Positions 8,574-13,279 of a DNA stretch of 45,398 nucleotides are shown here, piece by piece. Source of the stretch: Bacilli bacterium (GTDB lineage Bacteria; Bacillota_I; Bacilli_A; ML615J-28; CAG-313); the NCBI GenBank assembly GCA_017463365.1, contig JAFTPH010000003.1, positions 1 to 45,398 of the forward strand. The letters are read 5' to 3'. Position numbers and translations under genes: made by a program. Each line of letters opens with the position of its first letter. Position 1 is the stretch's first letter. The notes beneath the pieces are model-generated. The model searched no databases and was not told where the DNA came from. It saw only the letters and a list, made by a program, of their open reading frames with translations.

Positions 8574-9116
8574 ATGAAAATGAACATCCATGGTAAGAAC
8601 AAATTTGAAGTAAAGCCAGGTCTTAGAAAGTACATTGAAGAAAAAATTGAAACCTTTGTAAAACTATTTAGTAATACGGATGGTTTATCTGTTAATGTAG
8701 TATGTAAAGAATATGGCGATGATAAGGTGGTAGAAATCACCATTCCAACTAAACATTTAATCTTAAGAGCTGAAGCTTCTACTGAAGACATGTTTTCGTC
8801 AGTAGATAGTTGTGTAACAAAATTAGAACAACAATTATTAAAACATCGTAAGAAAATTAATTCAATTATTCGTTCAAGAGATGGTGTATCTACTTACTTT
8901 AGTGAACAGTTTGAAAAACGTGAAGCAGATGAAGAAAATGGTCAAGTAGTACGTCAAAAAGAAGTTGACTTACAAGTAATGAGTGTTGATGAAGCAATGT
9001 TACAACTTGAATTATTAGAACATGACTTCTATATGTTTATAAACGAAGAAGATCATAAAGTAACGTTAATTTATTTACGTGAAGATGGTAATTACGGAAC
9101 AATGAGAGTTAAATAG
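8574..9116 (+). CDS. hpf: ribosome hibernation promoting factor, long form
   Basis: A 180-residue long HPF (YvyD type). Residues about 1-100 form the S30AE domain that binds the 30S decoding site (it starts MKMNIHGKNKFEVKPGLR). After a linker with acidic residues, residues about 122-178 form the C-terminal dimerisation domain (VMSVDEAMLQLELLEHDFYM and the end VTLIYLREDGNYGTMRVK). Long HPF joins two ribosomes into inactive 100S dimers during starvation. The ATG at 8574 follows AAGGAGGAC with good spacing. It is a single-gene unit with its own promoter and shares a hairpin terminator with the convergent gene. Confidence 0.95.
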   Translation: MKMNIHGKNKFEVKPGLRKYIEEKIETFVKLFSNTDGLSVNVVCKEYGDDKVVEITIPTKHLILRAEASTEDMFSSVDSCVTKLEQQLLKHRKKINSIIRSRDGVSTYFSEQFEKREADEENGQVVRQKEVDLQVMSVDEAMLQLELLEHDFYMFINEEDHKVTLIYLREDGNYGTMRVK

Positions 9117-9121
9117 TTTTA

Positions 9122-9150
9122 AAAGAGGCGAATTATTCGCCTCTTTCTTT
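9122..9150. terminator. bidirectional terminator between hpf and yidD
   Basis: An 11-bp perfect stem, AAAGAGGCGAA (9122-9132) with TTCGCCTCTTT (9136-9146), has a 3-base loop. T-rich sequence follows on the plus strand, and a short T-run follows on the minus strand. The minus-strand gene's stop codon lies in the loop and stem. Confidence 0.85.
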
Positions 9151-10044
9151 TGGGATATATAAATTATAATTATTGATTGAAAACTCTTCGTTTTCATCAA
9201 AAAAACGCACAATACAGTTTAAATGAAATAAAATCTTGGGATCAACTAAATTATCACCGGTAACAATAATAATTTTACTAGGTGTATTTTCTAAATATTT
9301 ATGAGTTAGATTTTCACTACTTATTACTTCCGCATCCCATACTTCTGTAAAATATTTTAAAGCTTGATGATCAATATTTTCAAAACCAATAATTGATTGG
9401 TTGTTAAAATATCTTTCGATTTCTTTTTTCCACATAGATAAAGGAATCTTGGATGTCTTATGTAAATAATAGTTAATCGGATAATTAGAACTTGGAATTA
9501 AATTAGCAAAATTAATTTTTTTCGAAGTATATTCTATTATTTTTAAGTCATTTAGTTTTTCTAAAAGTAAGATATAAGTATCAGGAATATTAACTAATGT
9601 TTTTTCTTGATTTATAAATTCTTTAGTTTTAACAAAATTTAAACCAAGATTTTCGATTCTATCAAATTCCAACTCACTCGTAAAGTTAAAGTTATAACCA
9701 TAAAGATATTGAATAGTTAGAATTAATAAATCATCATTTTTAAGATGTTTATGTTTTAATAATAGATCAAGATAGATTGGATCATTATTTTGTTTTAATA
9801 AATTAAATTCCCTCATTTGTTTTTTCTCATCTTTAGTTAAGGGTACTAAATCTACTCGTCGTTTAGTGAAAGGTGTACAACGTAAAATTCGAAAACCAGT
9901 TAAGATAGATGCATAAAACCAGTTAAACTTTTGATATGCTTCAATCGCATAATTAGAACAACTTGGTATAAAATGACATCTACCTGATATACGTTTATGT
10001 TTTTGATATAATCTAATTAATTTAATTGTTTTTTCATTACGCAT
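9133..10044 (-). CDS. yidD: YidD membrane insertion factor with long C-terminal extension
   Basis: A 303-residue protein. Residues about 1-70 are a clear YidD domain: LIRLYQKHKRISGRCHFIPS, then CSNYAIEA and ILRCTPFTKRRVDLVPL, with the three conserved cysteines. YidD is normally 70-90 residues and helps YidC insert membrane proteins. The remaining 230 residues are an unrecognised, mostly hydrophilic domain without membrane segments (blocks such as KNDDLLILTIQYLYGYN and SKIIIVTGDNLVDPKILFHL). The frame is unbroken, so this is a fusion or a lineage-specific extension. GAGGA precedes the ATG on the minus strand. It is convergent with hpf and divergent from ytfI. In many bacteria yidD sits beside rnpA and yidC; here it stands alone. 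Confidence 0.85.
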   Translation of the reverse strand: MRNEKTIKLIRLYQKHKRISGRCHFIPSCSNYAIEAYQKFNWFYASILTGFRILRCTPFTKRRVDLVPLTKDEKKQMREFNLLKQNNDPIYLDLLLKHKHLKNDDLLILTIQYLYGYNFNFTSELEFDRIENLGLNFVKTKEFINQEKTLVNIPDTYILLLEKLNDLKIIEYTSKKINFANLIPSSNYPINYYLHKTSKIPLSMWKKEIERYFNNQSIIGFENIDHQALKYFTEVWDAEVISSENLTHKYLENTPSKIIIVTGDNLVDPKILFHLNCIVRFFDENEEFSINNYNLYIPKERGE

Positions 10045-10114: not shown

Positions 10115-10606
10115 ATGAGATATCTAATGTTAGGCATATTATTACTATTTATTATTTTGATAATTATAAAAATTAAGTTGATAATTGAATATGATCAAGA
10201 ATTTAAAATTATGTTAGTAATAGGCAATATCTATAAAATTAAACTAAATAAACAAAACAATAACCAAAATACAGGAATAAAAGAAGTATTAGAAGTTTTA
10301 AAAAAAATAACTAATCCTTTTTTAATTAAGTTTTTAAATCAATCAACAGGATGTATATCGTTTATAGTGGGTAATAATCTTTTTGATAGTCCATATCTAA
10401 TATTTAGTAGTTATATGGGCTTAATACTAATAAAAAATGAACTTTCGAAACTAGTAGGAAAAATTAAAAAAGAAAATTACCAAGTAATAATTAACGAAAA
10501 ATCGCTAAAAATGGAACTTATTTTTAGTATTAGTTTATTAAAACTGGCTATAATAATTTTAACAAACTATCAAAATTTTAAACTATTAATTAAGGGGGAA
10601 TCATGA
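10115..10606 (+). CDS. ytfI: YtfI-like membrane protein (DUF2953 type)
   Basis: A 163-residue protein with one N-terminal membrane helix (about residues 3-20, all aliphatic) and a mostly basic, hydrophilic remainder. The sequence itself is weakly diagnostic. The assignment comes from position: it directly precedes and overlaps ytfJ (its TGA lies in ATGATG), as in Bacillus subtilis ytfI-ytfJ. Ribosome binding before the ATG is poor. A TAAAAA-like box 6-13 bases upstream could be a -10, giving a very short leader. The role is unknown; in spore formers it is made with YtfJ. Confidence 0.55.
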   Translation: MRYLMLGILLLFIILIIIKIKLIIEYDQEFKIMLVIGNIYKIKLNKQNNNQNTGIKEVLEVLKKITNPFLIKFLNQSTGCISFIVGNNLFDSPYLIFSSYMGLILIKNELSKLVGKIKKENYQVIINEKSLKMELIFSISLLKLAIIILTNYQNFKLLIKGES

Positions 10607-10977
10607 TGAGTGAACATCAAATCAGTAATCTATTAAATGTTTCTATGGATAACTTAAAAGAAATGGTTAAAGCCGGAATGATTGTGGGAGATCCCATTCA
10701 AGTTAGTGGAGGAGTTTTATTTCCAATTGTTAAAGTTAAATGTGGATTAGTTAGTGGGGGGATGGATCAGGGTAAGAAAACTATTGATAACAATATGTCT
10801 TTTTCTGGAGCTTCAGCATCGACCCTTTCTCTTACTCCTTTAGCGATTGTTTCATGTGTTAACAATGAAGTTAAACTTTTACATATGGAAGAATCATCTC
10901 ATATTATTGAAAAAGCCATTGATAGTATTAGTAATACTATAAATAAATTGATTGACAAAACTAGTTCAAAAAACTAG
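10606..10977 (+). CDS. ytfJ: GerW/YtfJ family protein
   Basis: A 123-residue protein clearly related to YtfJ (GerW), a protein that in spore formers affects lysozyme resistance or germination. Family marks are the N-terminal NLKEMVKAGMIVGDPI, the glycine-rich middle (VKCGLVSGGMDQGKK) and the C-terminal SLTPLAIVSCVNNEVKLLHM with EESSH. The ATG at 10606 is preferred over 10603 because it is seven bases from GGGGG. It is translationally coupled to ytfI. The hairpin terminator overlaps its stop codon. No other sporulation-specific gene is near except a YlmC-type gene at 27117, so a non-sporulation role is possible. Confidence 0.85.
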   Translation: MSEHQISNLLNVSMDNLKEMVKAGMIVGDPIQVSGGVLFPIVKVKCGLVSGGMDQGKKTIDNNMSFSGASASTLSLTPLAIVSCVNNEVKLLHMEESSHIIEKAIDSISNTINKLIDKTSSKN

Positions 10978-11036: not shown

Positions 11037-12284
11037 ATGAATAAAATAGTTATTATTGGTGGTGGAGCATCAGGTATTTTTACCGCAATTATGATTAAAA
11101 AGATGCTTAAAGAACAGGTAAAAGTTACATTATTAGAACGTTTAGATAAAATAGGAAAAAAGATTTTAGCTAGCGGGAATGGCCGTTGTAATTTTACGAA
11201 TGAAGCCGTAGATAAAAATAAATATAATAACCCTGATTTTGTGAAAAATGCTTTAGAAGTTTTTGGATATCAAGAAACAATTAGTTTTTTTGAAGAGTTA
11301 GGACTGATCAGTAAAGTTTTAACTGAAGGTAGGGTATATCCGGTAACTGAAAGTGCCAGTGCTGTTTTAGATGTATTACGTATGGCTCTTAAAAACTTAG
11401 AAATTGATGTAAAAACTTTGTTTGAAGTGAAAAATATTATTAAAAATAAAAATCGATATTTAATCCAAGCTACAAGTGGTGAACAATTAGATGCGGATTA
11501 TGTAGTTACATCAACTGGTGGTACTTCATCTAAAGTACTTGGTTCTAATGGAAGTGGATATGATTTATTAAGAAAACATCAAATCCAAATTACTAATATT
11601 GTGCCAGGACTAGTTGGGTTAAAAACAACTGACAACTTAAAAAGTTTAGATGGAATTAGAGTTAAAGCTTTAGTAAAAGTTATTGATAAAGTAAATGATA
11701 AGGAATGCTTTAGCGAACTTGGAGAAGTTCAATTTAAAACTGAAGGAATTAGTGGGATTGTTTCAATGCAGGCGTCAAGCTTTATTGGAAGAACATTTAA
11801 AAATCCATCAAAATATAAACTAAGTTTAGATCTTTTACCTAATTTAGAAATAAATGATATAAAGAAATATTTTGATAATAAGATTAAACTATATGGTTTA
11901 GAAAAATCAGAAAGTTTATTTACCGGTTTAATTAATAAAATGATTGGACTAAAAATTTTAAAAGATTTAAAAATAGAGATTAATAAAACCCTTAATGAGT
12001 TAACAAGTGATGAACTATATATGATTGGAGAAAAAATTAAAAATTTTAATTTAGATATTGATTCAACTTATGGTTTTGATAAATCACAAGTAACGATTGG
12101 TGGAGTAAGCTTAGAAGAAGTTAATCAAAAAACGTTAGAATTATATAAATTACCTAACGTATATGTAACGGGTGAACTATTAGATATTGATGGCGAATGT
12201 GGAGGATTTAATCTTCAATGGGCGTGGTCAAGTGCCAGTTTAGCCGCTATATCAATATGTAAAAAAATAAAAGGTGAACGATAA
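11037..12284 (+). CDS. HI0933/BaiN-like FAD-dependent flavoprotein
   Basis: A 415-residue flavoprotein of the HI0933 (YtfP/YhiN) family, often annotated as aminoacetone oxidase family. Residues 1-16 have the dinucleotide-binding fold (IVIIGGGASGIFTAI). ASGNGRCNFTNEA at about 47-59 is the family signature near the flavin. The C-terminal GGFNLQWAWSSASLAA closes the FAD site. The substrate is unknown; it is probably a cytosolic oxidoreductase. The start is the ATG at 11037; an in-frame GTG 12 bases earlier is part of the GGTGA ribosome-binding site. The stop overlaps the next start by one base. Confidence 0.85.
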   Translation: MNKIVIIGGGASGIFTAIMIKKMLKEQVKVTLLERLDKIGKKILASGNGRCNFTNEAVDKNKYNNPDFVKNALEVFGYQETISFFEELGLISKVLTEGRVYPVTESASAVLDVLRMALKNLEIDVKTLFEVKNIIKNKNRYLIQATSGEQLDADYVVTSTGGTSSKVLGSNGSGYDLLRKHQIQITNIVPGLVGLKTTDNLKSLDGIRVKALVKVIDKVNDKECFSELGEVQFKTEGISGIVSMQASSFIGRTFKNPSKYKLSLDLLPNLEINDIKKYFDNKIKLYGLEKSESLFTGLINKMIGLKILKDLKIEINKTLNELTSDELYMIGEKIKNFNLDIDSTYGFDKSQVTIGGVSLEEVNQKTLELYKLPNVYVTGELLDIDGECGGFNLQWAWSSASLAAISICKKIKGER

Positions 12285-13279
12285 TGAGTAATAAAATTGA
12301 TGATCAAAAAATTAATCATTTAACGGATTTATTAGATTATGCAAGTATGCTTTATTTTGATGAAAAAGAAGCAACGTATTTAGATTGTTTAAGTAAAGTA
12401 TTAGAATCATATATGGATGAAGAGGCTTTACCTTTAGAAGATGATACGCTTGAAAAATTAAATGAAGTATTTAGCGAATTAGATAAAACAAACTTGAATA
12501 TTGAAGAATTACGTAAAGTCTTTTTATTATTAAGTATAAAAGGGTTTAAACATGCGAATTTCTCGCTTGATATCATTACCCCTGATGCGGTGAGCATCAT
12601 ATGTGCATCCCTTGTTGATACTTTATTAAAAAGATTAGAAAAACCAAAAGATATTAAACGTAAGTTTTCACGTCCAATTAAAGGAAAATATCAAGTTTTA
12701 GATATCAATTATGGAGTAGGAAACTTAGTTTTAAATATTAATAATCATGTGGATGAAGATTTAAAATTTATTGGAATTGAATCAAGTAATGTGCTTGCTA
12801 ATTACGCCAATACCATTAATAATTTTATGGATTTAGATATTACTATTTACAATCAAGATGCTCTTAGTTTAATTGTGCCAGGAGCGGATTTAGTAATTGC
12901 TGATTTAGCAAGTTATGAATATGAAGACCCACTATATGATTCAGTTTTAAAACAAAAAGGGGTTACATACTTCCCATATTTAGCGATTGAAAAACATTTA
13001 AATAGTGGTCACGATAAAACAAAATATCTATATTTAATAGATTTTGATTTCTTTGAACATCCAGGTTCACTAGAATTTAAAAAGATTTTAAATGAGCAAG
13101 TGCTAATAAAATCTTTAATTGTGTTACCACAAAGTTTCTTTCAAACTTCACCAAAAGCTATTTTGATTCTTGATAAAGAAAAGAAAGGATCAACTAATAT
13201 TGTTACTTTACCTAACCTAACAGATAAAGAAAAATTTATGGAAGTTTTAAATGGTGTAAAAAAACAATTAGCAGAATAA
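12284..13279 (+). CDS. ytxK: YtxK-like SAM-dependent methyltransferase
   Basis: A 331-residue protein, the same length as YtxK of Bacillus (about 329), with an N-terminal helical part and a Rossmann-like methyltransferase core at about 130-330. Motif I reads VLDINYGVGNLVLNI (family: LDPAVGTGNLL). The catalytic motif, DLPVGYY-like in YtxK, reads DLASYEYEDPLYD here and so lacks the usual proline. The C-terminus has LPQSFFQTSPKAILIL, which is typical. It directly precedes ackA, as ytxK does in Bacillus, which strongly supports the name. It overlaps the flavoprotein gene by one base. The substrate is not known. Confidence 0.8.
   Translation: MSNKIDDQKINHLTDLLDYASMLYFDEKEATYLDCLSKVLESYMDEEALPLEDDTLEKLNEVFSELDKTNLNIEELRKVFLLLSIKGFKHANFSLDIITPDAVSIICASLVDTLLKRLEKPKDIKRKFSRPIKGKYQVLDINYGVGNLVLNINNHVDEDLKFIGIESSNVLANYANTINNFMDLDITIYNQDALSLIVPGADLVIADLASYEYEDPLYDSVLKQKGVTYFPYLAIEKHLNSGHDKTKYLYLIDFDFFEHPGSLEFKKILNEQVLIKSLIVLPQSFFQTSPKAILILDKEKKGSTNIVTLPNLTDKEKFMEVLNGVKKQLAE

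Follow-up and report, generated by a model that had tools for sequence, protein, structure and literature searches.

To our knowledge the mechanism of YidD is poorly understood, and a yidD gene of an uncultured, gut-type Bacilli bacterium raises the question of what a C-terminal extension of 230 residues, joined in frame to a YidD domain, is and where it came from. The gene lies in a stretch of 45,398 nucleotides, here called the window (contig JAFTPH010000003.1 of assembly GCA_017463365.1; genome G000). YidD has been tied to membrane protein insertion in E. coli (Yu et al., 2011, as entered in a table of PMC8082313), and the protein is also treated in a section of PMC6822775; the string YIDD in a section of PMC4244168, taken up as a candidate mention of the protein, is a reverse transcriptase motif and was discarded. 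No such YidD fusion is reported in the titles or abstract openings of the papers retrieved on YidD, membrane protein insertion and rnpA/yidC. The features to which we refer are the following:

9133..10044, minus strand: complete gene for a 303-residue protein, YidD plus a C-terminal extension of 230 residues (list of open reading frames, domain scan)
9844..10029, minus strand: YidD domain, residues 6-67, with C..PSCSNY and RILRC retained and the GGYDPVP end changed to KRRVDLVP (Pfam, consensus)
9785..9843, minus strand: linker (LTKDEKK...), residues 68-86, common to all YidD proteins of family f1, the unextended one included (alignment)
9496..9797, minus strand: probable eroded U domain (described below), approximately residues 83-183 (profile comparison, moderate)
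9151..9405, minus strand: possible remnant of a P-loop kinase core, approximately residues 214-298, with a beta-alpha-beta-alpha-beta pattern and no P-loop motif (weak)
9116..9156, no strand assigned: hairpin between the convergent 3' ends of hpf and yidD (z -2.78; the terminator scan did not report it)
8574..9116, plus strand: neighbouring long ribosome hibernation factor HPF, convergent with yidD (Pfam/NCBIfam scan)
10115..10606, plus strand: neighbouring 163-residue protein, divergent from yidD, with PF14663 as its only match (E 0.035, below the cut-off; Pfam/NCBIfam scan)
10603..10977, plus strand: neighbouring GerW/YtfJ family protein, which together with HI0933 marks the conserved yidD locus (Pfam/NCBIfam scan, loci of the relatives)

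The window gene and its extension

The yidD frame is single and open, starts with ATG and is preceded by AGAGGA, which resembles a ribosome-binding site. Residues 6-67 match the YidD family well above both curated cut-offs, with an E-value of 2.9e-17 and 62.6 bits for Pfam PF01809 (cut-off 27; profile positions 4-67 of 67) and 44.8 bits for NCBIfam TIGR00278 (cut-off 40). CHFIPSCSNY and RILRC correspond to the YidD motifs CxxxPTCSxY and RxLRC; the end of the domain departs from the family, as the window reads KRRVDLVP where the consensus is KGGYDPVP and where most other YidD proteins of the same family of genomes (f1) have KxYDPVP. We nevertheless regard the protein, the sole YidD of its genome, as a YidD, because the score of the curated domain is still reached, and its role in insertion is presumably retained. 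The remaining approximately 230 residues, which distinguish the protein from a short YidD, gave no Pfam or NCBIfam match up to an E-value of 10, and the best hit of a PDB sequence search had an E-value of only 1.9. They contain no membrane helix, the highest mean hydropathy over 19 residues in the entire protein being 0.88. The first-pass annotation had described a YidD fused in one frame to an unknown extension devoid of membrane helices, and both points were confirmed. Downstream, the yidD stop codon lies in the loop of the hairpin, so that the last yidD codons are in its stem; on the divergent side, an HI0933-like flavoprotein accompanies the 163-residue and GerW-like proteins.

YidD proteins are usually short, as had been noted before. 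YidD is present in 47 of the 60 relatives searched; in the sister family f2 all 14 translated YidD proteins have 76-100 residues, and a search with the alignment of the window group (the window protein and its two nearest relatives, G003 and G008) retrieved short YidD proteins (52-127 residues) at 34 of 36 named genome loci. The other two, both long, are the Bacilli MAGs RGIG2093 from goat colon (G008) and RGIG5470 from sheep colon (G003), which were assembled independently and carry the window's type of long frame. Within f1, 14 of the 15 genomes, the window's own included, encode a YidD, and 13 of these 14 proteins are extended (172-449 residues in total), the sole unextended one being the 87-residue YidD of G005. 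Among 13 yidD regions fetched from relatives, gerW adjoins yidD in 11 and HI0933 in 9, and at least one of the two is present in all 13, which indicates that the f1 yidD genes are orthologues at one locus.

Other YidD proteins of the class have C-terminal partners as well. Two genera of family f13 (G155 and G196) contain YidD in frame with an AhpC/TSA peroxiredoxin (L135:702-1391 and L134:709-1464, both on the minus strand), divergent from a methyltransferase-like gene that by eye resembles the one at 12284-13279 of the window, and in G085 YidD is in frame with a ZnuA-type lipoprotein (L133:330-1454, minus strand), where an internal signal-like start may point to two overlapping genes or to an error. 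These partners belong to known families and are unrelated to the window tail.

Could the long frame be an artefact, in which a frameshift, a lost stop codon or a mis-assembly merges yidD with its neighbour? The long frames of G085, G155 and G196, each conceivably erroneous, would be in line with such a reading. It is opposed by the extensions in 13 of 14 family members at the same locus, two of them of the window's type, and by selection on the frame: between G003 and G008, dN/dS is 0.365 for the tail (at dS 0.88) and 0.065 for the YidD part, values that are approximate because third positions are AT-rich, and intact tails of other relatives have dN/dS of 0.16-0.36. The tail thus varies far more than YidD. 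Since two independent relatives share the long frame and the dN/dS of the tail is about 0.37, a sequencing error joining two genes, raised in the first-pass annotation as what would overturn its reading, is unlikely, and purifying selection argues that the tail is not junk. We regard the artefact reading as highly improbable and largely refuted; the window gene is a real, selected fusion, and the extension is real and conserved in the family.

The U domain and the tail states of the relatives

The extensions of the relatives differ in their state of preservation. In G001, G006, G011 and G013, YidD is followed by a clean domain of approximately 170 residues, which we named U, with the motifs YQxxFGPxH ... 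HSxxYxxxYxPHYRVI and, in the alignment, invariant features that include YQxxxGPxH, GNG-R, H and PHYR. In G004, YidD, U and a P-loop kinase form one protein of 449 residues (E-value of 1.7e-112 with the U-kinase profile). Five relatives have a worn U: G010 and G012 are matched by the U profile (2.5e-13 and 9.3e-13) though several motifs are lost, and the profile of YidD-fused U gives 2.2e-8 for G007, 6.3e-6 for G002 and 0.36, not significant alone, for G014; taken as a group, with the linker included, these last three reach 2.9e-9. The window protein, G003 and G008 have the most diverged form of the tail. The f1 YidD proteins thus show a series from intact fusion through erosion to loss. The YidD-U and YidD-U-kinase proteins share with the window the locus, the linker and the start of the extension; they differ in that YQxxxGPxH and HSxxY are present in all five and absent from G000, G003 and G008, and in that G004 keeps the kinase and its GxxxxGK[ST] loop, which the window tail lacks.

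U is also found away from YidD. Within the class, the U profile matched 53 of the 395 genomes searched, and no Pfam or NCBIfam model was found for it when the U proteins were scanned, so that U appears to be an undescribed domain family. Standalone U proteins of 166-195 residues were translated at 20 loci (L037-L049, L051, L054-L056, L067, L075 and L081), and U is fused once to an aldo/keto reductase (L050). The question posed in the first-pass annotation, of whether the extension ever occurs alone, is thus answered positively for the intact U of the relatives, an answer that does not extend to the window's own diverged version. At these 21 standalone-type loci, motif searches placed a Fe-S aldo/keto reductase adjacent or fused to U at 7 (the fusion counted) and a UPF0047 gene at 3, the motif missing a UPF0047-like gene at L042 that was seen by eye. 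Among viral contigs, 161 pattern matches to U yielded no confirmed case.

We further collected 20 U-kinase proteins without YidD (323-370 residues), a set that excludes fragmentary places and the long U proteins L059 (267 residues) and L068 (about 445 residues by coordinates). In these proteins, one of which (G000:C2) is encoded in the window's own genome, U precedes the P-loop kinase, as is also proposed for the protein from which the window tail derives; they lack YidD, and 19 of the 20 keep the GxxxxGK[ST] loop that is missing from the window. Their kinase part is nearest to the NCBIfam models PRK06547, uridine kinase and dephospho-CoA kinase, all below the cut-off. One U-kinase of family f2 (L074:1527-2546, plus strand), also without YidD, reads GRNENMIT at the P-loop and is probably a dead kinase. 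Of the 9 family genomes in which the YidD tail is worn or missing, 4 encode a U-kinase as a separate gene (G000:C2:20738-21190, G003:C12, G008:C4 and G012:C22), as against 0 of the 5 with an intact YidD-U; with so few genomes the difference is not significant (Fisher p ~0.13). YidD fusions themselves aside, none of the checked U or U-kinase loci has yidD beside it.

In a tree of 48 U domains, from which the window group is absent as too diverged, the YidD-fused domains do not form one clade (three changes, two of them forced by starred branches) and the U of G004 stands on a very long branch (3.55). This split leaves a single fusion event unestablished, and both one fusion followed by fast change and two fusions would fit. 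The U-kinases that the family encodes separately cluster in a starred group distinct from the YidD-fused U, and on this ground the window tail, itself outside the tree, was rejected as a recent copy of the U-kinase of its own genome.

Comparison of the window tail with U and with the kinase

Past the common linker, G000, G003 and G008 align colinearly. A profile comparison of this group with YidD-fused U gave an E-value of 1.3e-6 with the linker and 0.0033 once it was removed (a score reached by 1 of 200 column shuffles); without the linker, the G003/G008 pair gave 0.0055 (0 of 100 shuffles as high), and the group gave 0.059 against wider U profiles (6 of 200 shuffles as high). The window sequence alone matches YidD-fused U weakly (P 0.13, 13 of 100 shuffles), in register on the N-terminal motif of U: its residues 100-121 take the position of this motif in the relatives, and IENLGLNFVK that of IEDIGNGYVR. 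A search of the window's genome with the U profile did not find the tail at E-values up to 1, and the U-kinase profile matched it with an E-value of approximately 1. When whole tails were tested with the U-kinase profile against their shuffles, the outcome depended on the parameters (Z of 1.3 to 4.1 for G000, with G003 and G008 mostly no better than shuffles); in one of these tests the top scores were high because the 51 ORFs taken as negatives included a few true YidD-U or U proteins. Position, spacing and the profile comparison (P ~0.003 after removal of the linker) make an eroded U in the window tail probable, and we hold this assignment with moderate confidence.

For the C-terminal part, we used a two-module kinase score, one module spanning beta1 to beta2 and the other beta3 to beta4, designed after the alignment had been seen by eye. 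Shuffles scored as high in 7 of 500 cases for G000, 5 of 500 for G003 and 26 of 500 for G008, and unrelated segments in 17, 0 and 5 of 427 cases, respectively; in the control G010, expected to be without kinase, 427 of 500 shuffles did so. The profile comparison of this part with the kinase was not significant (its score was reached by 32 of 200 shuffles and, in a second comparison, by 19-78 of 100), and GxxxxGK[ST] is absent from the window protein. Structure prediction, proposed in the first-pass annotation for the tail, gave an AlphaFold model that is good to approximately residue 115; beyond it pLDDT is 28-66, except for a helix at residues 151-170 or so, the tail model of a sister has a mean pLDDT of 44, and Foldseek returned 0 matches at E-values up to 0.001. 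In this low-confidence model, for which no kinase sequence was used, residues 200-298 or thereabouts come closest to P-loop NTPase folds (a top Z of 5.3, which chance often produces), and among the P-loop folds that residues 202-298 resemble are AAA+ ATPases and designed P-loop proteins (Z no higher than 5.3). A dead kinase remnant in the C-terminal part is only suggested by these data. Since the window protein retains neither a P-loop nor a U motif, a second catalytic activity in it is unlikely; the earlier proposal of a second activity attached to YidD finds its counterpart in G004, with its intact-looking P-loop kinase.

Origin and possible role of the tail

The reading that we favour, and consider rather probable, is that the orthologous yidD genes of the family gained U and a P-loop kinase and that the window's branch eroded this extension to a dead, still selected tail. 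The C-terminus of yidD would once have gained the U domain with the small P-loop kinase behind it, a state surviving in G004, and the ancestral YidD would have anchored a small-molecule kinase at the membrane. The branch of the window would then have lost the U motifs together with the ATP-binding loop of the kinase, and a folded, catalytically dead tail would persist under relaxed yet real purifying selection, so that the window tail is probably a catalytically dead remnant of YidD-U-kinase. Common origin with U-kinase is likely for the U part and less so for the kinase part. We infer both the loss of catalysis and the role of the tail: the YidD part would lie at the inner membrane face and aid insertion as in other bacteria, and the tail would be in the cytoplasm and have no catalytic action, serving at most for binding or to stabilise YidD.

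Three other readings accept the fusion as real. That U was replaced after the linker, in the window's branch, by an unrelated or new domain with its own function would explain why neither single sequences nor whole-length profiles gave a significant match to U or kinase, and a dN/dS of about 0.37 shows such a domain to be kept; the same spacing after the linker, the weak matches in register, the profile comparison (P 0.003 when the linker is left out) and the sister genomes, in which a series of U tails is plainly eroding, speak against it, and we judge it unlikely, although it is the strongest of the three. A working insertion module that binds clients, the ribosome or YidC, close to the client- or ribosome-binding function proposed in the first-pass annotation, would be consistent with a soluble, selected tail fused to YidD and with the link of YidD to insertion in E. 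coli entered in PMC8082313. The company of intact U is metabolic, however, as the domain stands alone, with kinase or with aldo/keto reductase at loci where yidD is not adjacent; moreover, G005 does without the extension and the tail is far more variable than YidD. No result here speaks for contact with ribosomes or clients, and this function seems improbable. Slightly more doubtful still is that U-kinase is a new small-molecule kinase module that part of the family ties to the membrane via YidD, the window's branch having turned it into a pseudokinase that would sense a nucleotide or metabolite and tune YidD in insertion.

Under the favoured reading of an eroded YidD-U-kinase, the window gene is a curious fusion and not a novel insertion machinery. 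YidD alone, YidD-U, YidD-U-kinase and worn tails at one locus are natural variants for probing the C-terminus of YidD. The U domain is the more useful by-product: it is found in 53 of 395 genomes with no family model, and its company, P-loop kinase and aldo/keto reductase, makes its function testable.
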